This document shows, piece by piece, positions 409 to 13,370 of a DNA stretch of 64,000 nucleotides. Source of the stretch: Citrus sinensis (Eukaryota > Streptophyta > Magnoliopsida > Sapindales > Rutaceae); NCBI RefSeq assembly GCF_022201045.2, contig NC_068561.1, positions 24,310,501-24,374,500 of the forward strand. The letters run 5' to 3'. The first letter of the stretch is position 1. Every line of letters begins with the position of its first letter. The notes under the pieces are model-generated. The model did not search any database. It saw only the letters and a program-made list of their open reading frames with translations, and was not told the DNA's origin. Both the position numbers and the translations under genes were made by a program.

Positions 409-832
409 ATGTCACGTAAGGGAGGTGCTAGGCATGCCTCTAGCTCGAGAGATGTTTTAGGTATCGCTGACGACGCTGACCCAACCTTGCACGAGATGGC
501 TAACGAAGGAAATCCTATGATGCGCGCAATGCTTAGATTGATGGAACAACAAAGTAAGTTAATTCAAGATATGGCTAGAGGCAGAGTTGGGGCACAAGAG
601 AATGTGCCAGTTGAAAGGCAAGGTGGCGCAAGAGATCATGGGGCTATGGTGAACTTAGAACGATTTAAGAAATTGGGACCACCTACCTTTCAGGGGACTG
701 CCGATCCCATGGTTGCAGAGGCATGGCTAAAACAGATGGAGAAGATATTTGTGGCTATGGGTTGTAATGATGATCAAAGGGTAATATTAGCCTCATTTGT
801 CCTTCAGGGTGAGGCAGACCACTGGTGGGATG
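409..832 (+). pseudogene. Outer element gag, N-terminal part, cut by the nested insertion
   Basis: This encodes the first 141 residues of Gag. It starts at the ATG in the context of residues MSRKGGARHAS and runs to the conserved DHWWD motif of the plant retrotransposon gag domain (about residues 133-137). The frame stops after D because the Athila-like LTR begins at 833. The matching continuation, [14 protein letters not shown], begins at 13371 in the same frame after the repeated GGATG. Gag assembles the virus-like particle around the element RNA. The frame extends to 849 only because it reads into the nested LTR. Confidence 0.8.
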
Positions 833-2216
833 TGTTGTGCAAATTTTAATGTACTCGCAAGCGCACGAATCTATTGTAGTATAGATCTATGGTGACGAGT
901 GTCGATCCCACGAGGAGGTGGATTTTAATTGTGTAGAATTAATTTTGTAAATGGGTGATTGGATTTATGGTGGAAATGATTTGGAATATGCTAAAACTTA
1001 AATTAAAATGGCGAGAATAAATTCTAAAACTGGAATTGAAATGGCGAGAATGAATTGAAGAGAATTCTATTGAAATGACGTACTTGGGTATCTGGATCCG
1101 TATCAACATGCATCATGGGCTAAATAATCCGTATTAATGCCAATTAAATCATGAGGGGGGAATCCACACCTCATGAACCACGCTCTAATCAATATGGTGC
1201 TAAGGGCTTATCGTGCCAAATAATAATAACCTTATACTAGAGAGCCGGTGTAACCAAGGCGGTATCTAGACAAGACTATTATTATTTGTCGACGAGAAGT
1301 CAAAACATCCACAAAAATTAGAGGGGAAGAGAAAATAAATTTACCAAATTAAGCCCATGACACATGTTGAGACTTCACCTTCAACCCAAGCTTGAAAGAA
1401 AATTAGCCACTCATAATTGAACTAGGGGCAAAATGGAAATTTATTAAAATACGAAGAAAATACAAGATGGAGAAGGAATTACAGAAAATGGATCCCAAAA
1501 ATGGATTCAGAGATATCAAATTAGGGGGGGGAGGCCCCCTTTTTATAGATACATGGAGTAAATCATGGCCATCGGATTAAAAATAGTTTGGACGCTCAGG
1601 ATTGCGCCACGTCATCAGTCAACAGTCCACGGTTTGACCACGCGGATGAACAGTAACACGGTTTGACCCGACTTTGAACAGTAACGCGGTTTGACCCGGA
1701 TGAACAGTAACGCGGTTTGGTTGAAAATAATCCTGTGTGATGCATGCACCGTACGCGAGATTTTTCGTCCACTGATATGCTGCCACGTCACCATCAACAG
1801 TACATAAGAATTTTAGTCCAACAGGATCGTGACACCTCATCAGTCAATGCCACATCATCGGTCAATGCCACGTCATCATCCGTCTATGTGAACAGTGTCG
1901 TGAACAGTAACGTATACAGTACCGTACACGTGAATAGTACCGTACATGTGAATAGTGTCATTTTTCCTTTTATGCTCCTCCTAAGGTTTTCGACCGTCCT
2001 GAGTTCAAAAGTGATGTCCGTTTTGCCGTCTGATCTCTCCTTTATTGTGAAATGACTATAATGCCCCTAAAATACATAAAATACTTAATTAAAATAAAAC
2101 ACATGTAATTAAATCACAAGAAGGTTAAATATATAAAAGTAAGGGTTGTTAGTAAGACTTAAAATGTAAAATAACGGTTTTCTCCTTTATAAATATGCAT
2201 TTTCTAATACTCAACA
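833..2216 (-). repeat. 3' LTR of the nested Athila-like element (1384 bp)
   Basis: On the + strand it reads TGTTGTGC...CTCAACA, with TGTTG/CAACA terminal inverted repeats. It is the same length as the copy at 11982-13365, and I saw no substitution or indel between them. It contains a promoter-like U3 with a TATA box near 1539-1548 and a cluster of TTGAC(C/T) and TGACGTGGC motifs between 1606 and 1880. Small open frames inside (1615-1840 and 1744-2055) recur identically in the other LTR and are not treated as genes. Confidence 0.95.
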
Positions 2217-2228
2217 CACCCCCCAACC
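2217..2228 (-). other. Polypurine tract of the nested element
   Basis: The + strand reads CACCCCCCAACC directly beside the LTR end at 2216, so the element sense is GGTTGGGGGGTG. This is the position and composition expected of the plus-strand primer. Just upstream in element sense is a 7-bp perfect inverted repeat, TTGCTAG/CTAGCAA (2235-2251). Confidence 0.75.
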
Positions 2229-3751
2229 AGCTTATTGCTAGTCCCTAGCAAATAAAGCGAAAACAAAATTCAAATTCAAAATAATTTTTTTTTTGTTTTA
2301 ATAGAAACACTCGTATTTATTCCATCAGATTAATGATAACACTCAAATAAAAGTATAAGCATTATCTCTAGTCTAAAGCAACATCACACCCACATCAACC
2401 ATCCACATGAATTAGCCCAGTAGACTTTGTTTTAGCTACTCTCAAGAATGACATGTCAAACCCCAAAATCTCACTGGAAGTAGTGACACTCTCACAAATA
2501 AATTAATCCCAATAAAAATAGTCACTCCAATGAATGGTAATTGAGAGAGAAAATAATAAAGAAGTGATATCACATGCTCTCACCAAGATGAAATAAATAT
2601 GCCCTCAGCTTAGAAATAATACGATCTCAAGTCAAATAAAATGTTAGTCAACCCACTTTATTTATCTTTTTTTTTTTTTTAATTATGCATCACTACATCT
2701 TTTTAGCCCATATAACTAGCTTCTACTTCAAACTATAGTTCCCTAAAATCAAGAAGGACTTTTATTAGGATGAAACGTAGGCTAGGGACATGGCTAACAA
2801 AGAAGGAAAATAAGGAAAACAAAGTGTATGTTTGAGAAAAATGCAGAGAAATTTTTTTTTTTTTTTTGGAAGTTGCAAGGTGGATTTCACCTATTTTTAT
2901 TCTTTTGAAACAACAACTTTTGTTTTTGTTTTTGTTTTTGTTTTTTTTTTGTTTTTTTTTGTTTTTTGGCATAACTTCACTGAACAACATAATTATTTAC
3001 ATTTTCTCAAACATAAATAGGTGATGGAACTTATAAGACATCGGGTAATACTCCAAATCGGAGTGGGTCAAGATGATAAGTTGACAAAGAAAATGTTTTT
3101 TTTTTTTTAAAGGCTCAAAAGGGTTAACTATGGATATTTAATAAAAGGGATGGCTAGAAAGGCTCAAACGGATCAAAGATGGCCTTTCCATCGTCTTTTA
3201 GGGCTCTGAATAACCTTCCATATCTACTAGTTAGATGGGCCTCCAAATGTAGCAACACACTCTTTTTTCTTTTTCTTTTTTCTTTTTTTTTTATTTTACA
3301 ATTTTTTTTTTTTTTAGGGTTAACTCAAAAGTAATTTAGAGATCGTGTATAAAATAATAAACTGCTAAGCTGTATAAAGAGTGGGCAAAAGGGTTATTCT
3401 CCAAGAAAAATAATAGGCTCAAAAACTCACTTGGTACTTATTATGACATGTTCATTCCTTCAAGCAACTCATATATGTCTCCGACATCAACATGTAGAGT
3501 AGCAAACATAATGTAACATCACTTAAGACCAAAGATAATACAAATACTAAAATTTAAAATTAATCATGTCACCCAATGTTAAAACAAATCACACAAATTT
3601 TTTTTTTTTTTAAACAACATTCTACCCCCCAACCTATTCTAAACATGAAAGGAAAATATGCATGCAGAAATGTGAAAATGATGCATAAAAACTAATTAGA
3701 AAAGTTACACGTAAAATGATAGAAAACGAAAATGATTTTTTTTTTTTTAAA

Positions 3752-3962
3752 GAAGATGCGTTTCTAGAGGAACTACACTCCATATTCAGCCATCTTCGAC
3801 TCAAAAGTTGGAAAATGTATATTTATAGAGGAGAAATTAAAAAGAAGAAAAATAAACATAAACACATAATAAAGAAAAAGAAAATGTCTGAATTTTTTTT
3901 TTTTTTTATAAACGATGAAGATGCGTTTCTAGAGTCACTACACTCCATATTCAGCCATCTTC
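3752..3962. repeat. Duplicated 46-bp hairpin-forming motif
   Basis: Two near-identical copies start at 3752 and 3917 (165 bp apart). They share GAAGATGCGTTTCTAGAG and CACTCCATATTCAGCCATCT and differ in a few bases between. Each copy begins GAAGATG and ends CATCTTC, so each can form a 7-bp stem. T runs precede both copies. Confidence 0.7.
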
Positions 3963-4043
3963 AACACAAAAAGTTAGCAACAGTTAGTTTCTACAACAAA
4001 AATTAGTAAAAACTTAACCAAAATTCTACAATTGTCGACTATT

Positions 4044-4083
4044 CCCTCCCCCCAACCAGAACGAAACATTGTCCTCAATGTTT
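4044..4083 (-). other. Internal purine-tract-like motif with hairpin
   Basis: In element sense, AAACATTG-AGGA-CAATGTTT (4064-4083, a perfect 8-bp stem with a 4-nt loop) is followed by GGTTGGGGGGAGGG (4044-4057). The G tract resembles the terminal PPT at 2217-2228, and a third copy of the GGTTGGGGGG core is at 3625-3634. It begins about 60 nt after the LOG-like stop. An internal PPT could give a second plus-strand priming site. Confidence 0.55.
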
Positions 4084-4144
4084 GAAAGGAAAGAAGTAGA
4101 GTTTAGAAGACATCACCTGGGTGGTGCAACACAGAAGAAAATAT

Positions 4145-4852
4145 TTATAGGCGGAGAGTTAAATCTAATTTGTACTTCTTACTGCTGCTACTGTTACCAT
4201 CATTATTTGGACGCTCCAACACGAAGGTCCAGGGGTCTGGCTCCGGTCTATAAGCTTGTAACAGATCAAGTAGCTCGTTAGCAGTGTGAGCACAAATAAA
4301 AAGTTTTTTCACATTAGCGGGAATGAAATAGTTTTTTATTGCATGGTTAAGAAATGCGATAAAGCCATCATAAAAGTTATTGACATTTAACAAACCGATG
4401 GGTTTTTGGTGGATGTGCAGATGGGCCCAAGATGCTAGCGTGATAAGTGCCTCTAGTGTTGCAAGATCTCCTGGAAGGAAAATAAATGCATCAGCATGAT
4501 TAAGCATTTCAGTTATTCTTTCTTGCATACCTGAGACGACTAACTCTTCTCCAGTTGATGAGTCAGACGAACTGCCCAATGGTTTTAGGACTCTTGGGAT
4601 GATGCCTAACACTTGACTTCCTCTGATAAAAGCTGCTTCGGAGACCATTTTTGATAACCCTCGGTTACCTCCTCCATACACCAAATGTAAATTTCTCGCT
4701 GCTATGCTTCGACCAAGATCTATGGCTGCCTCAACGAACTCTTTATGTTTGCCATAGGTAAATCCAGAAAGCACACAAATGTTCTTGAATTGTCTATTGG
4801 GAGTAGCTGCCATTGGAATATTTCTCAAAAACAATTTGTGAGTGTTTGACAA
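4145..4852 (-). CDS. Accessory ORF C of the nested element: captured LOG-like protein with degenerate catalytic motif (235 aa)
   Basis: The protein aligns by eye over its whole length with plant LOG (LONELY GUY) enzymes, cytokinin riboside 5'-monophosphate phosphoribohydrolases that release active cytokinin. Retained are a Rossmann start (KNICVLSG, 23-30), AAIDLGRSIAARNLHLVYGGG (42-62), LGIIPR (82-87), M-x-x-R-x-x-E-M (109-116) and the KPIGLLNV strand (150-157). The signature PGGxGTxxE is PGDLATLEA (127-135), so two glycines and the final glutamate are lost. Host LOG genes have several introns; this frame has none, so it was probably captured as spliced RNA. It is on the element's sense strand between ORF B and the 3' LTR. 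The start at 4852 is used; the ATG at 4813 (residue 14, MAATPN) may be the original start and lies just after an acceptor-like TTTTTGAG. LOG activity is doubtful. Confidence 0.85.
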   Translation of the reverse strand: MSNTHKLFLRNIPMAATPNRQFKNICVLSGFTYGKHKEFVEAAIDLGRSIAARNLHLVYGGGNRGLSKMVSEAAFIRGSQVLGIIPRVLKPLGSSSDSSTGEELVVSGMQERITEMLNHADAFIFLPGDLATLEALITLASWAHLHIHQKPIGLLNVNNFYDGFIAFLNHAIKNYFIPANVKKLFICAHTANELLDLLQAYRPEPDPWTFVLERPNNDGNSSSSKKYKLDLTLRL

Positions 4853-5136
4853 AAGAAATCACATTTAAGAGTCTTGGTGATAGTGGGTCACAGCTGTGAA
4901 TGAGGTAACATGTTAGTGTCAAATAACGCATGAAGCACATGGCTCGCGAGTCAAAAAGAAAACAGTAAAAAGGAAATAGCAAACAATAATAAAATTATTA
5001 AAGACAATAATGCAAACAATAAAACAACAGTGAAATGAAATAAAATAACAGTAAAGTAAAAGGATATTTACACGTAGTTGCGACTGTGGCTCACATCTTC
5101 CTCTGGTTTTACGTCCAGAAACGGCTTGAACGCCCT

Positions 5137-5694
5137 CTATGGGTCGAGGATAGGCTTCCCATCCAGTTTTCTTATAAACAGGCAAACAGGGTCGTTTATA
5201 GTCAGATTCCCGAGACTATATCGTGCATGCTCTTTCTGGAATAATGGCCATAACTGGAGAATCGCTCCTTGCACATATCCACTGGGATGCGTTTCAAGAG
5301 ACAAAAGGATATCATCCAATGACTCCTTATTCAAGCCATCCCTAATGAATTGAATCTTATCTTCCCTGTTATCAGACATCATTCCTAAAGAACATGGGTT
5401 TTTATTGCAACTCATTCTGGCACACTTATGACAAGCAACAGAAATTCTTCGAGCTCGTCGTTTTCTTGCATAATTTCCTTTACCACAACCAGGCATGTAT
5501 GCAATAAATTTTGGAGGTAACTCACCTGCCGATCGTACTTTAGCCTCGATTAACCAACGGATGTCAGCAGGTATGTTATTTCTCATGAGTAATCGCATGC
5601 GTTCGGACCGAGCTTTATAGATCGTAAGGAGGGCATTCTGAGGAAGTGAAGGGAATCGCTTGTGAAGCTTCGTTAGAATCTCGTTTCTGTCCAT
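5137..5694 (-). CDS. Accessory ORF B of the nested element: Cys/Arg-rich protein resembling plant-virus nucleic-acid-binding proteins (185 aa)
   Basis: The core is an arginine-rich stretch, YARKRRARR at 75-83, followed by a compact Cys cluster C88, C91, C96, C101 with H89 (CHKC...CNKNPC), and then a D-K-x-x-F-I-R-D-G-like tail (112-120). The order of basic stretch, zinc-finger-like cluster and short charged tail is that of the small cysteine-rich nucleic-acid-binding proteins of flexuous plant RNA viruses (carla- and vitivirus type, Pfam Viral_NABP and Carla_C4). In some of those viruses the protein suppresses RNA silencing. The ORF here is longer than those, with about 65 extra C-terminal residues and a helical N-terminus. 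It lies between ORF A and the LOG-like ORF on the element's sense strand and is unbroken. Homology is my judgement from motif order; an independent zinc-binding protein is possible. Start: first ATG of the frame at 5694. Confidence 0.5.
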   Translation of the reverse strand: MDRNEILTKLHKRFPSLPQNALLTIYKARSERMRLLMRNNIPADIRWLIEAKVRSAGELPPKFIAYMPGCGKGNYARKRRARRISVACHKCARMSCNKNPCSLGMMSDNREDKIQFIRDGLNKESLDDILLSLETHPSGYVQGAILQLWPLFQKEHARYSLGNLTINDPVCLFIRKLDGKPILDP

Positions 5695-5835
5695 ACCTTC
5701 GCCTCAGAATATCAGTTATTATAGGAAACTGAAGTAACCGACTTGATTGTCACGGAGTACCGTTATCCGCCACTTCACCGGGGTAACAAACTAAAGCACA
5801 CAAACAGAAAAACAAATTAAAACACACAAAGAAAA

Positions 5836-6111
5836 TTAAAATCGTCCTCTTATTGAATTTACCTCAAGCTCCAACTGGATGTCGTAAACACTTCTCTCAA
5901 TGTCTCTGAGTTGGCTTTCTAAACCCTCAACATAGGCTACTAACTCTGGTGGTTGTAGAGCCCAAATGCGTTGTGTTTTACAAAATTGAATCTGCCTTTT
6001 GAGATGAGTTTTGACACGTTGAAGTGGTTTAAGAATGTTCAGGAGGAACGGCCTAAGTATGAGACTCATGATTAACAATGATAAGAGAAAACTTAATGGT
6101 AAAATAAACAC
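5836..6111 (-). CDS. Accessory ORF A of the nested element: small membrane and coiled-coil protein (91 aa)
   Basis: I do not recognise the family. The predicted protein has a hydrophobic N-terminus (about residues 3-27, rich in L, I and F) that could be a signal anchor or transmembrane helix, then a basic stretch (about 32-48), then a helical, coiled-coil-like segment with regular hydrophobic spacing (about 53-84). It lies 87 nt after the gag-pol stop on the same strand, where Athila elements usually encode an env-like protein. An N-terminal membrane segment would fit a shortened env-like remnant. It could also be a chance frame. Confidence 0.4.
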   Translation of the reverse strand: MFILPLSFLLSLLIMSLILRPFLLNILKPLQRVKTHLKRQIQFCKTQRIWALQPPELVAYVEGLESQLRDIERSVYDIQLELEVNSIRGRF

Positions 6112-6198
6112 ACTTATGCAAAAACAATTTCAATTAGCAAAAGAATAATATAAAGAAAGAAAACAAAATCAAATCAACGAAAAGAAAGAAAAAAAAAA

Positions 6199-9100
6199 TC
6201 AATTCAAATCTGGTGGGTCACTCAAATTTATTTCGGTGTCTTCTCCACGTGGTTGGTATTCTAGATATGGCTTTAATCTTTGACCATTAACTTTAAACGT
6301 GACACCGTTCTTTGGGTCCTTAATTTCAATTGCCCCATGTGGAAAAACAGTATGAACAATAAAGGGACCAGACCAACGAGAGCGTAACTTACCTGGGAAT
6401 AGGTGCAAGCGAGAATTGAATAAAAGCACTTTCTGACCTGGAGTGAACGATTTTCTCATAATTTGCTTATCATGGAAGACTTTCATTCGTTGCTTGTAAA
6501 TTTTGGCATTTTCGTATGCATCATTGCGAATTTCTTCAAGTTCTGCCAGCTGTAATCTTCTTTCTGAGCTGGCTTGCTGCATGTCAAAGTTGAATTTCTT
6601 GATGGCCCAATATGCACGATGCTCGAGTTCCACAGGTAGGTGGCAAGCTTTTCCATACACTAGCCTGTAGGGTGACATCCCAATTGGGGTCTTGAAAGCC
6701 GTTCTATATGCCCATAATGCATCATCAAGTCTTAATGACCAATCTTTTCTGTCTGGCCTCACCGTTTTTTCTAATATGTGCTTTATTTCTCGATTGGAGA
6801 TCTCAACTTGGCCACTGGTTTGCGGATGATACGGGGTCGCCACTTTGTGTGTGATTGAATACTTTGTCAAAAGAGCCTTGAATGCTTTGTTACAAAAGTG
6901 GGCACCACCATCACTGATTATCGCTCGAGGGAATCCAAAGCGTGAAACAATGTTGCTTTTCAAAAATGCTATCACCACCTTGTGATCATTGGTCCTACAT
7001 GGAATTGCTTCTACCCATTTTGATACGTAGTCAACAGCAACCAATATGTATTGATGGCCAAAAGAAGGGGGAAAGGGTCCCATGAAGTCGATACCCCATA
7101 CGTCAAAAATCTCAACCACTAAAATTGGATTTAGTGGCATCATGTTCCTTCGTGTAATGCTTCCCATTCGTTGACACCTATCACATGAAGAACAGAAAGT
7201 GTAAGCGTCTCGAAATATAGATGGCCAATAGAAACCACATTGTAAAACTTTAGTCGCTGTCTTCTTAGCACTGAAATGGCCTCCACAAGCTTGTTCATGG
7301 CAGAATGAAAGGATATTCTGAATTTCACTTTCTGGGACACATCGTCTAACAATTTGATCCGCACAATACTTGAACAAATACGGGTCATCCCAAAAGAAAT
7401 TCTTTATCTCTGCAAAGAATTTAGCCTTGTCTTGCTTGGTCCAATGCTCTGGAAGTTTACCTGTAACAAGATAATTAACTATATCAGCATACCAAGGTAA
7501 TACTTCCACACTCATTAATTGTTCATCTGGAAATGACTCATTTAATGGTAATTGTTCTATAATTGTGTCAAAATGGAGACGAGAGAGGTGGTCCGCCACA
7601 ACATTTTCTATCCCTTTTTTATCTTTGAATTCCAAGTCAAATTCCTGCAAAAGTAACACCCAACGAATTAGTCTGGCTTTTGCATCTTTCTTTGTGAGAA
7701 GATATTTAAGAGCAGCATGATCTGTGAATATAATTATTTTACAACCAATGAGATAAGATCGAAATTTTTCCAATGCAAACACTACTGCTAGCATTTCTTT
7801 TTCAGTAGTTGAATAGTTCAACTGTGCATCATTCAATGTCATACTAGCATAGTAAATAACATGAGGAATTCGATCAACTCTTTGTCCTAAAACTGCTCCT
7901 ACTGCATAATCAGATGCATCACACATAAGCTCAAATGGTAAGCTCCAGTTTGGGGCCTGAATGATGGGTGATGATGTCAACAATTGCTTTAATTTTTCAA
8001 AAGCCATAAGACATGAATCATTAAAGATAAAAGGTACATCCTTAGCAAGTAAATTGCATAAGGGTCTAGAAACTTTGCTAAAATCTTTAATGAAACGTCT
8101 ATAGAAACCAGCATGCCCAAGGAAAGATCTTACTTCTCTGACTGTTTTAGGTGGAGGGAGATTAGAAATGAGATCCACCTTGGCTTTGTCAACCTCAATA
8201 CCTTTGCTCGAAATGATGTGACCGAGAACAATACCTTGTTTTACCATAAAATGGCACTTCTCCCAATTTAAGACTAAGCTCTTCTCGGTACATCTCTGCA
8301 GAACTAGCGTTAGATGATGTAAACATTGATCAAACGAGTCACCAAAGACAGAAAAGTCATCCATAAAGACTTCAAGGAATCGTTCAACCATATCAGAAAA
8401 AATGCTCAACATACATCGTTGAAATGTAGCAGGTGCATTACATAATCCAAATGGCATTCTCCTATATGCAAATGTGCCAAAAGGGCAAGTGAAAGTAGTT
8501 TTCTCTTGATCTTTTGGTGCTATGGGGATCTGATTATATCCTGAGTAGCCATCTAGAAAGCAATAAAATTCATGGCCTGCTAATCTATCAAGCATTTGAT
8601 CAATAAATGGTAAAGGAAAATGGTCTTTACGTGTGACAGAATTCAATTTCCTATAATCGATGCATACACGCCACCCTGTAGTTACTCTAGTGGGTATCAA
8701 TTCATTATCTGCATTCGTAACTACTGTGACTCCTGACTTTTTGGGGACAACTTGTACAGGACTGACCCATGAACTATCAGAAATTGGGTAAATGATACCT
8801 GCATCTAATAGCTTAAGGACTTCAATTCTAACAACTTCTTTCATATTAGGATTTAACCGACGTTGCATTTCCCTAGTAGATTTAGCATTTTCATCAAGGT
8901 GAATGTAATGCATGCAGTCTACTGGATTTATACCTTTGATGTCTGCTATGGTCCATCCTAATGCTCCTTTGTGCTCTTTTAAAACATCCAACAACTTACC
9001 TTTTTGTTCGTCATTGAGGGATGATGAGATGATTACCGGTAGAGTACTTTCTTCTCCCAAAAATGCATATTCCAATGTGTTGGGTAATGGTTTGAGCTCG

Positions 9101-11616
9101 AGTTTCGGTGGTGATTCTGATGATGGGATGAGTTTCTTCTCTGATGGTGCTAGTTGTTCAACTCTTGACTTCCATTTATTAGTGTCCATAGATGGTGCTG
9201 AGTCAAGCAGGGCGTTGACCTCATCAACCGATCTGTCAATATCAAAATCAAAACCAAAGTGAGTTAAACATGTTTGTAAAGGATCATCACTAAGGTTTGA
9301 AACAAAAGTATCATCAACTAATGCTTCAATTAAATCCACATCAACAATTCCATCATCTGCATTGTGAGGTTGTTTGGCAATGTTGAAGATGTTCAGTTCC
9401 ATAGTCATGTTGCCGAAGGACAACTGCATATTTCCAGTCCTGCATTGAATGTGAGCATCCGCAGTTGCCAAGAAAGGTCGGCCTAGAATAATGGGGATGT
9501 GCTTCCTTGAATCCTGTATTGGTTGAGTGTCAATTACAATGAAATCAACAGGAAAATAAAACTTGTCTACCTGGATAAGCACGTCCTCCACAATACCACG
9601 AGGTATTTTCGTGGACCGATCTGCAAGCTGTAACACCACTGGAGTTGGGTGTAATTCTCCCAGTCCAAGTTTCACGAATACAGAGTAAGGCAAAAGATTT
9701 ACACTAGCTCCTAAATCCAACAAAGCATTCTCAATTGTGTGGTTCCCTATACTACATGAGATAGTGGGGGAGCCAGGGTCTTTGCATTTTAAAGGAATTT
9801 TATGTTGGAGTATAGAACTAACGTTTTCTGTTAAAAATGCCTTCTTTTGAACATGCATATTTCTCTTTTTAGTACAAAGGTCTTTAAGAAACTTGGCATA
9901 AGATGGAACTTGTTTAATAGCATCAAGCAAAGGGATATTAACACTTACCTGTTTGAAGATTTCGAGAATCTCACCTGTGGATTTTCCCTTCTTTCCTTTC
10001 GCTAACCTTTGAGGAAATGGAGCTTTCGGAACGTATTCTCGTGGGTTGGTTTCTTCTTTCTCCTCCGGTGATGAGTCTTCAACATTCACAGGTACAATTT
10101 GATTTTCTTTTGTCACCAGCATCTCCACTTTGTTGTCGACTTCCTTTCCTTTTCGCAAGGTCATTACTGCTTTGACCTCTCCATGTTGCTGTGGTGAACT
10201 AGTACTCGCTTCATGCACTCCTTTAGGATTAGGCACTGGTTGACTTGGAAATTTTCCTTTCTCAACAGTCATTGCCAAGGTCTGAACTGAAGAAGCGAGT
10301 TGTCCCACCATCTTCTCGAGGCTTGAAACTGATTGGGCTTGTGAGTTGAAGCCCGCTCTCAACTCATTTCGTAGTCCATCAATGGTGCGGTTCTGTTGCT
10401 CAATCGTGGAGTGAGTAACATTCTTGAAATTTTGGAATGCATCCTCCCATGGTCTGGGTTGAGAGTAGTTCTGATTCTGATTGAATGGTCTAAATGGGGG
10501 CTGAGAGGCTTGAGGATTTTGTGGAATTGGTGGAGCTGGAGCTGTTGGTCCATTCTGTTGGAATCCTTGAGACCATGAAAAATTGGGGTGGTCTCTCCAT
10601 CCAGGGTTATATGTGTTGGAGTATGGGTTGTAATTTGATGGCTTTCTCATTACACCTATGGCATTGGCTTGATCTGAGTATGAGTCATGGTCATGTGGCT
10701 CTGTTGATTTAGCAGTCGATAATGATGCTATTTGTCGAGAGAGACCTTCAATTATCGCTTTGACTTCTTTAATTTCTGAACTTGATTCGCCAATTTGAAC
10801 CTCATTCACTCCTTTAATTCTTCTAGTAGTCCTGAGTGATCGACTCCGTTGTTGGGAATTATCTGCTTGTCGCTGGAAGAATTCCCAAATCTCTGATGCA
10901 CTTTTTGACATTAGCTCTCCTCCACTCGTTGCCATTAGCCATTCTTGCACATTCGGCAATAATCCCTCCAAAAAGTATTGGCATTGGTGCCATTTCTCGT
11001 ACCCATGATGTGGACACTTCAAGAGTAGCCCATTGAATCGCTCCCATGTTTCGAAAAATTGCTCGTCATCTTTCTGGGTAAACTCCGAGATTTCCCTGCG
11101 AATAGCATTGGTTTTATGCACTGGGAAATATTTATTTAAAAATTTTGTAACCATTTGTTCCCATGATGCAATGCTATTAGCAGGCAATGTATTAAGCCAT
11201 GAACGAGCTCTATCTTTTAAAGAAAATGGGAATAGTCTAAGTTTAACATCATCATCTGAAAAATTCTCATATTTGAATGTTTGACAAATGGCATGAAAAT
11301 CATTCAAATGATTATATGGATCCTCATTTTCTAGGCCATAAAATGTAGGGAGACAATTTAACACACTAGGTTTTAATTCAAAACTCCTAGCAGCTACATT
11401 TGGGTATCTTATGCATGACGTGCTCAAATTAGCTAAGGGACTAAAATAGTCCTTAAATGGCCTCTCCTGTGGTGCTTGTAAATCCATTTTATTTTTAACG
11501 TGTTTGTGTGTGCGAAGTGTTTTTTCTAATTCAAGGTCTATAGGTTCAAGATTAGGTAATAATGACCTACGACCATGCATGCAAAATAAATAAAATAAAA
11601 ATAAAGATGCAAACAA
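6199..11616 (-). CDS. Athila-type Gag-Pol polyprotein, 1805 codons, intact
   Basis: One uninterrupted frame encodes Gag (about 1-500), aspartic protease (D634-L-G-A-S), reverse transcriptase (VCIDYRKLN motif, FMDD at 1084-1087), RNase H ([19 protein letters not shown]) and integrase. The integrase has the HHCC zinc region (H1440, H1447, Cys pair near 1475), catalytic D1510, D1569 and E1605 (D-x35-E), and a C-terminal GPF motif near 1735. Gag has the [11 protein letters not shown] motif but no CCHC knuckle, as in other Athila elements. There is no frameshift or stop between gag and pol, so a single polyprotein is likely. The start is at 11616; a second in-frame ATG at 11580 (residue 13) is equally plausible and leaves out a hydrophobic stretch. 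No active-site loss is visible, so the product may be functional. Confidence 0.93.
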
Positions 11617-11957
11617 AACAAAAATAAAGATGGGAACAAAACAAATAAAAATAAAGAAGAGGGAGAAATTACGATACTAACCTTATTGCGCTATTACAAC
11701 CTTTCTATAAAAATACACAAAAATAAATACGTGAAAGAAATTAACTAAAAATTAAATTAATAAGATAAACAAAAAAAATTACAAAGAAAAATAAATGGAA
11801 AATTAAATTACAAAATTTTAAAGAAGAGAAAAAGAAAAGAAATACTAACCTTTAAATGTAGATTCACTTTTTTTTTTTAATAATAAAAAAAAATACAAGA
11901 AAACAAATAAAAGAAATTATTCACAAAAATTAATTCTATGAATTAAAATTACTTACC
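11617..11957 (-). other. 5' leader of the nested element
   Basis: This is AT-rich, low-complexity DNA (runs of AAATAAAAATAAAG on the + strand) between the primer site and the gag start. I see no open frame of note. It would contain the packaging signal, but I cannot identify one. Confidence 0.5.
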
Positions 11958-11975
11958 TCCCCGGCAACGGCGCCA
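11958..11975 (-). other. Primer binding site, tRNA-Asp type
   Basis: The + strand reads TCCCCGGCAACGGCGCCA, which matches the 3' end of plant tRNA-Asp including the terminal CCA. Its complement is the PBS in element sense, 6 nt from the 5' LTR edge at 11982. A tRNA-Asp primer is characteristic of Athila/Tat elements. Confidence 0.85.
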
Positions 11976-11981
11976 AAAACT

Positions 11982-13365
11982 TGTTGTGCAAATTTTAATG
12001 TACTCGCAAGCGCACGAATCTATTGTAGTATAGATCTATGGTGACGAGTGTCGATCCCACGAGGAGGTGGATTTTAATTGTGTAGAATTAATTTTGTAAA
12101 TGGGTGATTGGATTTATGGTGGAAATGATTTGGAATATGCTAAAACTTAAATTAAAATGGCGAGAATAAATTCTAAAACTGGAATTGAAATGGCGAGAAT
12201 GAATTGAAGAGAATTCTATTGAAATGACGTACTTGGGTATCTGGATCCGTATCAACATGCATCATGGGCTAAATAATCCGTATTAATGCCAATTAAATCA
12301 TGAGGGGGGAATCCACACCTCATGAACCACGCTCTAATCAATATGGTGCTAAGGGCTTATCGTGCCAAATAATAATAACCTTATACTAGAGAGCCGGTGT
12401 AACCAAGGCGGTATCTAGACAAGACTATTATTATTTGTCGACGAGAAGTCAAAACATCCACAAAAATTAGAGGGGAAGAGAAAATAAATTTACCAAATTA
12501 AGCCCATGACACATGTTGAGACTTCACCTTCAACCCAAGCTTGAAAGAAAATTAGCCACTCATAATTGAACTAGGGGCAAAATGGAAATTTATTAAAATA
12601 CGAAGAAAATACAAGATGGAGAAGGAATTACAGAAAATGGATCCCAAAAATGGATTCAGAGATATCAAATTAGGGGGGGGAGGCCCCCTTTTTATAGATA
12701 CATGGAGTAAATCATGGCCATCGGATTAAAAATAGTTTGGACGCTCAGGATTGCGCCACGTCATCAGTCAACAGTCCACGGTTTGACCACGCGGATGAAC
12801 AGTAACACGGTTTGACCCGACTTTGAACAGTAACGCGGTTTGACCCGGATGAACAGTAACGCGGTTTGGTTGAAAATAATCCTGTGTGATGCATGCACCG
12901 TACGCGAGATTTTTCGTCCACTGATATGCTGCCACGTCACCATCAACAGTACATAAGAATTTTAGTCCAACAGGATCGTGACACCTCATCAGTCAATGCC
13001 ACATCATCGGTCAATGCCACGTCATCATCCGTCTATGTGAACAGTGTCGTGAACAGTAACGTATACAGTACCGTACACGTGAATAGTACCGTACATGTGA
13101 ATAGTGTCATTTTTCCTTTTATGCTCCTCCTAAGGTTTTCGACCGTCCTGAGTTCAAAAGTGATGTCCGTTTTGCCGTCTGATCTCTCCTTTATTGTGAA
13201 ATGACTATAATGCCCCTAAAATACATAAAATACTTAATTAAAATAAAACACATGTAATTAAATCACAAGAAGGTTAAATATATAAAAGTAAGGGTTGTTA
13301 GTAAGACTTAAAATGTAAAATAACGGTTTTCTCCTTTATAAATATGCATTTTCTAATACTCAACA
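11982..13365 (-). repeat. 5' LTR of the nested Athila-like element (1384 bp)
   Basis: It appears identical to 833-2216 throughout. In element orientation it is the upstream LTR, so its U3 is the functional promoter. The TATA box equivalent is about 12688-12697, and the W-box and bZIP-type motifs lie at 12755-13026. It ends with CAACA next to the target duplication GGATG. Confidence 0.95.
12688..13026 (-). promoter_or_regulatory. U3 promoter of the nested element: TATA box with W-box and bZIP-type motif cluster
   Basis: In element sense the sequence CTATAAAAAGGGGGCC forms a strong TATA box. Upstream of it (higher coordinates) are three TGACGTGGC motifs, seen on the + strand as GCCACGTCA at about 12755, 12931 and 13016. 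There are also several TTGAC(C/T) cores, three as TTGACC on the + strand at about 12783, 12812 and 12840 and others on the - strand. TTGAC cores are WRKY sites and TGACGTGG is a bZIP (G/C-box hybrid) site. The density suggests stress- or defence-responsive expression, which is an inference. The same array exists at 1539-1877 in the other LTR. Confidence 0.5.
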
Positions 13366-13370
13366 GGATG

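Follow-up and report, generated by a model that had tools for sequence, protein, structure and literature searches.

The question raised by this locus is what an Athila-type retrotransposon carries where an env-like gene would stand, and whether that content is kept by selection. The window, that is, the whole stretch of DNA analysed here (64,000 nucleotides of Citrus sinensis, NCBI RefSeq assembly GCF_022201045.2, contig NC_068561.1, positions 24,310,501 to 24,374,500 of the forward strand), contains a complete Athila-type Ty3/gypsy long terminal repeat (LTR) retrotransposon on its minus strand. According to a published account, env-like open reading frames (ORFs) occupy, in sense orientation, the interval from pol to the 3′ LTR (PMC7264820). 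At that place, after the pol stop at 6199, the element carries three ORFs, termed A, B and C, all on the minus strand and hence in element sense. An earlier description made from the letters of the window, hereafter the sequence-only reading, had presented them as three unbroken ORFs of 91, 185 and 235 codons between the pol stop and the polypurine tract (PPT), forming an accessory module in the env position. Its coordinates were found to be right, and its codon counts hold with a GTG start for A and a TTG start for C. The features of the module are the following.

5836..6111, minus strand: ORF A, 91 codons if started at GTG and 77 if started at the conserved Met (6069); a basic part followed by a coiled-coil-like one; intact in 54 of 60 copies
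5137..5694, minus strand: ORF B, 185 codons; related to the nucleic-acid-binding proteins of viruses, with RKRRARR and Cx2Cx4Cx4C; intact in 58 of 60 copies
4145..4852, minus strand: ORF C, 235 codons from TTG and 222 from the ATG at 4813; LOG fold, with PGDLATLEA for PGGXGTXXE; intact in 54 of 60 copies
5060..5192, minus strand: nucleotide block conserved between subfamilies, from the end of ORF B into the B-C spacer; 89-98% identity in 60-column windows covering 5218-5039

An A-B-C cassette kept by selection

A total of 299.7 Mb of genome sequence (11 contigs) was searched, and 150 hits per ORF were scored out of first-look candidates numbering 1,517 (A), 1,880 (B) and 2,119 (C). Stop-free frames were found in 147, 149 and 147 of these hits, respectively, a share that is biased upward because the scored hits were the best-scoring ones; a one-copy oddity was ruled out by the 150 hits scored for each ORF. 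Moreover, 60 of 80 fetched loci were analysed as copies, 30 of them from the search with B and 30 from the search with a Xanthoceras relative, while loci L031-L050, centred on C or A, were excluded. The frames were intact in 54 (A), 58 (B) and 54 (C) of these copies and all three in 50, counts biased by the choice of copies on similarity of B. The A-B-C family is young and abundant, and 14 of the 60 copies, including that of the window (L015), were identical to the window over the 2,100 nt of the module. Since many copies are young and nearly identical, open frames alone prove little.

Two further subfamilies, II and III, were found with a divergent Citrus relative of C (P0219) as query. Subfamily II looks older, with a stop-free C in 11 of its top 36 rows; for subfamily III (30 rows with a 228-codon frame), C was stop-free in 28. 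The order A-B-C was the same in the four copies inspected, two from each of these subfamilies (L081-L084), whose proteins were 46-52% (A), 63-68% (B) and 75-76% (C) identical to those of the window, the match of B in L084 being split in two pieces of 63% and 77%. In the two copies of subfamily III, A, B and C were all open.

The ratio of non-synonymous to synonymous substitution rates (dN/dS), calculated by the Nei-Gojobori method, ranged between subfamilies from 0.28 to 0.39 for A, from 0.22 to 0.29 for B and from 0.19 to 0.23 for C, and the bootstrapped values between I and III were 0.29 (0.11-0.58), 0.24 (0.15-0.36) and 0.18 (0.12-0.28), respectively. Within a pair from the decaying subfamily II, the ratio was 1.06 for A and 0.60 for C. 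Furthermore, variants were analysed in 47 distinct module sequences of subfamily I, with non-synonymous over synonymous counts (N/S) expressed relative to the neutral expectation from the non-coding spectrum. For variants present in 2-4 copies, N/S was 0.16 (A), 0.23 (B) and 0.20 (C), and for those in at least five copies it was 0.62, 0.16 and 0.19. Singletons gave 1.26, 0.42 and 0.65, the variant counts of A being small and the singleton value of B being lowered by the choice of copies on similarity of B. Such a pattern, with decay at the tips and constraint on the variants that copies share, would be expected from selection during transposition, and these sequence comparisons show that the A-B-C cassette is maintained by selection on the element as it transposes. 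Neutral passengers were rejected on the ratios well below 1 between subfamilies and on the few shared amino-acid variants. Two of the checks proposed in the sequence-only reading, open frames across genomic copies and dN/dS well below 1 between copies, spoke for its module. The ORFs are neither missing elsewhere, nor neutral, nor confined to one copy, because 50 of 60 copies have all three intact, their order recurs in two divergent subfamilies and dN/dS is low.

Conservation extends to the nucleotide block at the end of B, the other ORF windows being 53-88% identical between I and III. In subfamily I, shared variants (at least five copies) occurred at 0.018 per site in the block, 0.014 in the A-B spacer and 0.113 in the rest of the B-C spacer. 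For 5060-5192, a conserved RNA structure was not supported by the folding z-scores of three single sequences (−0.4, −2.5 and −1.4, the third sequence being offset and covering part of the block) or by column shuffles of the block alignment, 21 of 100 of which folded as well as the alignment itself. The block is termed an unexplained signal because such a structure was unsupported. A described RNA family inside the module was rejected on an Rfam scan of 833-13365 (E ≤ 1), in which snoR71 was the sole match.

Four-fold degenerate sites differed between I and III at 150 of 254 positions in pol (codons 678-1805) versus 37 of 112 in B and C (Fisher p 5e-6), and differences were also low in the last stretch of pol (2 of 10). 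The corresponding counts were 38/58 (one piece of pol), 14/42 (B) and 23/68 (C) between I and II, and 33/78, 12/56 and 17/72 between II and III. This contrast would fit either a recombinational exchange of the cassette or regional constraint, the latter being somewhat favoured because the ratio is similar in all three subfamily pairs.

The three proteins of the cassette

ORF B encodes a protein of pI 9.8, in which a basic RKRRARR at residue 77 is followed at residue 88 by a zinc-type cysteine cluster, CHKCARMSCNKNPC. A total of 217 relatives were obtained at E ≤ 0.1, and among the best 120 of these the cluster had the spacing Cx2Cx4Cx4C in 39 and ended in Cx3C in 48. The named relatives among the matches listed came from Citrus, Xanthoceras sorbifolium (69%), Acer yangbiense (64%), Populus x canadensis (64%) and Populus alba (60%). 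In 38 aligned B sequences at E ≤ 1, the Pfam family Carla_C4 was matched by all 38 (best 1.7e−7) and Viral_NABP by 35 (best 3.5e−8), no other family matching more than three. Ten relatives hand-picked from the 38 all passed at least one curated Pfam cut-off; when the same ten were shuffled, none matched either family, and one weak match to an unrelated family appeared. The Viral_NABP match spans residues 36-122 of B, taking in both RKRRARR and the cysteine cluster. These profile matches show that B belongs to the same protein family as the viral nucleic-acid-binding proteins (NABPs) or cysteine-rich proteins (CRPs), in agreement with the virus-type nucleic-acid-binding protein of the sequence-only reading.

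Structure-based searches with B gave weaker leads. Foldseek, run with a weak model, returned six viral matches from BFVD, none of them significant (E 0.49-9.8). Four of the six were of the NABP kind, namely a 15-kDa Cherry mottle leaf virus protein, the Coleus vein necrosis virus nucleic-acid-binding protein, a Grapevine virus H protein of the same putative function and a fragment of the RNA silencing suppressor of Chrysanthemum virus B; these viruses are betaflexiviruses. Among solved structures no convincing match was found (best E 1.4), the 29 pattern matches from a scan of viral contigs with the B alignment yielded no confirmed one, and PHROGs gave no useful lead. Viral CRPs are reported to suppress RNA silencing and to determine pathogenicity (PMC12172455), and by analogy B may be a silencing suppressor too.

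ORF C passed the cut-offs of PF03641 (E 1e−27, 97.3 vs 27 bits) and TIGR00730 (125.2 vs 96.35 bits) and missed that of the LOG enzyme equivalog NF058542 (91.5 vs 300 bits). Its nearest solved sequence, a strong match, was 2a33 (At2g37210), a protein named AtLOG3 (PMC4979012). Judged by these matches ORF C has the LOG fold, which upholds its description as LOG-like in the sequence-only reading. The named sequences among its relatives (523, the best 120 of which are considered throughout) were nearly all from Citrus, the closest being from Citrus x changshan-huyou (P0121, 97%); 52 of the 120 were exactly 222 amino acids long, the length that C has from its ATG, and 97 began with MA.

In CgLOG, Arg99 and Glu122 are the proposed catalytic residues, the phosphate is surrounded by Gly116, Ala117, Gly118 and Thr119, and changing AMP-binding and catalytic residues to alanine abolished nearly all activity, with the exception of Ser19 (PMC4979012). 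At the position of Glu122, the relatives of C had Ala (108), Thr (6), Asp, Ser, Gly or Val (one each) or a gap (2), that is, Glu in none of the 118 aligned. Moreover, the position of Gly116 was Asp in 115 of 117, and that of Gly118 was Ala, Thr or Val in 117 of 117, while Arg99 was retained in 100 of 109 and Glu121 in 115 of 118. Across the 60 genomic copies, the final residue of the motif was Ala in 59 and Val in one. Since the catalytic Glu is missing from all 118 aligned relatives, ORF C is probably a conserved pseudoenzyme. The suggestion in the sequence-only reading that a LOG protein would alter the host cell state is doubtful as far as enzyme action is concerned, because the catalytic motif is degenerate.

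As regards the origin of C, three host LOG-like exons (C7:1413177, C7:1366586 and C5:38206095) were 68-77% identical to At2g37210 over a 51-residue stretch, and the remaining rows listed in the same comparison, including the element copies, were 43-49% identical. Two host LOG stretches were examined; both have GG(Y/F)GTLEE, and one breaks after HDKPV, where ORF C is continuous. We read ORF C as an old, intron-free capture from spliced RNA. Five gene models of Citrus x changshan-huyou (P0004, P0100, P0174, P0193 and P0202) contain NABP-like and LOG-type domains in one predicted protein; they are probably gene-prediction joins across the cassette, and may be real fusions.

ORF A is, by its composition, a basic/coiled-coil protein of 77 amino acids, basic in its N-terminal half and acidic and helical-looking in its C-terminal half. 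The Met at 6069 is the start in many aligned relatives, others starting four codons later. With a profile built from four A sequences, 93 relatives were obtained at E ≤ 0.1, with Citrus x changshan-huyou as the sole named organism, and Pfam gave weak matches only, RDM appearing in 14 of 24 relatives (best E 0.00059) and other families more weakly. The maximal hydropathy over 19 residues was 2.7 in the 91-codon version, 0.9 in the 77-codon version and 0.1 and 0.4 in two relatives. Of the membrane/coiled-coil protein proposed in the sequence-only reading, the coiled-coil-like part is retained and the membrane part is dropped, because the hydrophobic stretch lies upstream of the conserved start Met.

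Proposed explanation and alternatives

A joint reading, to which we assign a probability of about 0.5, is that of a young citrus Athila-type element with a selected A-B-C cassette in which B is an RNA-binding silencing suppressor, C a non-catalytic binder and A a small partner. The element is a recently inserted member of a large citrus Athila-type family that carries the stable cassette past pol. Most likely, B would act in trans and, as its viral relatives suggest, would protect the RNA of the element against small RNAs and RNA-directed DNA methylation. The putative captured LOG-fold protein C, which lacks the catalytic glutamate and two motif glycines and keeps the catalytic arginine, would most likely act as a binder, its partner being either an AMP-type nucleotide or a subunit of host LOG, without making cytokinin. 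For the small basic/coiled-coil A, the role of an adaptor may be guessed, and for the translation of B and C the conserved block where B ends may serve as a signal. A wider version is put forward tentatively, as possible rather than probable: a counter-defence cassette would pair a silencing suppressor shared with viruses with a catalytically dead LOG, which would either bind nucleotides as a decoy or pair with host LOG in a dominant-negative manner. Such a cassette may move between element lineages by recombination, and the viral gene could even have come from the element family instead of having been passed to it.

Several observations weigh against the joint reading. The dN/dS of pol between I and III (0.08, 0.05-0.14) is lower still than those of A, B and C, a rough ratio because dS in pol is near saturation (3.2). 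Both copies of subfamily II have a broken B, with an internal TGA in L083 and a frame change in L084, and the counts of intact frames carry the bias of the B-guided choice of copies. Furthermore, the B of the window itself missed the cut-offs of both Carla_C4 (16.5 vs 20.9 bits) and Viral_NABP (14.2 vs 23), and the AlphaFold models of B (pLDDT 59.7) and C (pLDDT 39.8) were poor. The suppressor role of B is drawn from analogy, and the loss of activity in C is predicted from its motif, so that action on another substrate is possible.

Other explanations have to be set beside it. B might be a stand-alone nucleocapsid or RNA chaperone, not an anti-silencing protein, that packages element RNA because Gag lacks a zinc knuckle: neither a motif search nor Pfam (E ≤ 1) revealed a CCHC knuckle in gag-pol, and B is basic and has a zinc-type cysteine cluster. 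It matches viral NABP families, however, and not a nucleocapsid family, and we consider this role unlikely. Still less credit is given to an active, cytokinin-activating C that drives host cells to division, which would suit the LOG fold, the strong match to AtLOG3 and the retention of Arg99 and Glu121. The absence of Glu from the Glu122 position in all 118 relatives, the Asp at Gly116 in 115 of 117, the low equivalog score and the near-complete loss of activity of CgLOG on alanine replacement (PMC4979012) all speak against it.

Another conceivable role, that A, B and C jointly do an env-like job, with a membrane or cell-to-cell function, draws on their sense-oriented position in the interval from pol to the 3′ LTR; it appears very improbable in view of the lack of a hydrophobic segment in A from the conserved Met and of the non-env homologues of B and C. 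The faintest chance is left to captured passengers without function in young copies, a view already disfavoured. The 14 copies identical over the module, which make open frames poor proof, and the frequent breakage in subfamily II would agree with it, but dN/dS is well below 1 between subfamilies, shared amino-acid variants are depleted, and relatives of B occur in three other genera (Xanthoceras, Acer and Populus).

The element, its lineage and known systems

The remaining features of the element are listed below.

833..13365, minus strand: complete Athila-type Ty3/gypsy LTR retrotransposon, 12,533 bp (LTR ends, identity and flanking repeat computed)
828-832 and 13366-13370: target-site duplication GGATG, on both flanks of the element
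11982..13365, minus strand: 5′ LTR, 1,384 bp
11958..11975, minus strand: tract like a primer-binding site (PBS), TGGCGCCGTTGCCGGGGA, after the 5′ LTR, which we take to be of the tRNA-Asp type
6199..11616, minus strand: gag-pol, a single ORF of 1,805 codons, with Gag, protease, reverse transcriptase (RT), RNase H and integrase
4042..4053, minus strand: second, internal purine tract, GGGGGGAGGGAA, about 90 bases past ORF C
2217..2228, minus strand: PPT-like sequence, GGTTGGGGGGTG, adjoining the 3′ LTR
833..2216, minus strand: 3′ LTR, 1,384 bp

The two LTRs show 0 differences over 1,384 bp, and the element is a recent, very young insertion; the completeness and youth described in the sequence-only reading are borne out by the identical LTRs, the GGATG flanks, the PBS- and PPT-like tracts and the open gag-pol. 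Between ORF C and the 3′ LTR lie about 1.9 kb in which every element-sense ORF has at most 85 codons. The insertion splits a gag-like frame belonging to another retrotransposon (window 409-849 and from 13366 on). The match to snoR71, a plant snoRNA family, lies at window 11000-11103 on the plus strand, antisense to the gag region (48.6 bits vs a gathering threshold of 40, E 1.6e−7).

The Pfam order in gag-pol (Gag, protease, RT, RNase H, integrase) is that of Ty3, with integrase after RT and RNase H. A Pfam scan of the element proteins at E ≤ 1 found neither a chromodomain nor a second, archaeal-type RNase H, the latter being a mark of Tat (PMC6317226). By domain order and content, the element fits Athila (OTA superclade) and not Tat. 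No env or ATHILA match was obtained in a Pfam scan of its four long proteins, and in A, the ORF scanned for the transmembrane criterion of Athila env-like ORFs, no strongly hydrophobic 19-residue window was present from the conserved Met. The replacement or loss of env proposed in the sequence-only reading is accordingly a possibility, not an established point. ORFs with the ATHILA domain (PF03078) occur at 80 places elsewhere in the same genome, the window element being without one.

Extra ORFs (eORFs) are frequent in plant LTR retrotransposons and mostly of unknown origin, and whether they are functional has been raised as a question (PMC6317226, PMC7264820). The eORFs covered by a survey of 2019 had 250 codons or more and formed a heterogeneous set (PMC6317226), and because of that threshold cassettes of short ORFs like these would have escaped it. 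Two recognisable proteins under purifying selection in one family make the question of eORF function testable, and a specific form of it is whether the pathway by which transposons are silenced meets a virus-type suppressor encoded by a transposon itself. A LOG pseudoenzyme under selection, if true, would help to explore what LOG proteins do other than catalysis. Athila-type elements with accessory ORFs are already known as a kind; what would surprise a specialist is the selected virus-type B together with the selected pseudoenzyme C.

An earlier account, by Steinbauerova et al. in 2011, is said to be in line with a YgdH/LOG domain in Citrus Ty3/gypsy elements. Such a domain is reported in consensus elements of C. 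sinensis and C. clementina, and of P. trichocarpa with a filter off (PMC9289625), so the LOG part is not new. The sequence-only reading, which knew of no described family with this set, is corrected in that part and may hold for the NABP-like ORF, no report of which in a retrotransposon was found among open-licence full texts (titles and abstract starts), a weak kind of evidence for absence; PMC8438139, in the part available, concerns expression of host LOG5 and not an element LOG. The Citrus YgdH/LOG elements are very likely the same family as that of the window, sharing with it a LOG-family domain, in their case in elements of C. sinensis and C. clementina. They differ in that the NABP-like ORF, the small ORF, the selection on the set and the changed catalytic motif are unmentioned in the available excerpt (PMC9289625). 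The orchid Ty3/gypsy elements with an m6A RNA demethylase domain, described in the same excerpt, are alike in having an acquired, conserved domain that may raise the fitness of an LTR retrotransposon; the gene is another one, and no three-gene cassette is described there (PMC9289625).

Compared with the Athila lineage (Athila4, Calypso, Cyclops, Diaspora and Bagy-2), the citrus element has in common the single gag-pol ORF, the lack of a detected second RNase H and the extra ORFs and long non-coding region past pol, while coiled-coil, NABP-like and LOG-like ORFs stand in place of an env-like or ATHILA-domain ORF. With the LOG cytokinin riboside 5′-monophosphate phosphoribohydrolases, C shares the fold, the overall sequence, the catalytic Arg and the Thr and first Glu of the motif, whereas its catalytic Glu and motif glycines are replaced and the enzyme equivalog cut-off is missed. 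Finally, B and the NABPs or CRPs of carlaviruses, vitiviruses and their relatives (PF01623, PF05515) have in common a basic stretch followed by a cysteine cluster and a profile match of about 90 residues, whereas B is encoded by a retrotransposon, is longer, has a conserved C-terminal part and shows a cysteine spacing that is presumably tighter than the viral one.

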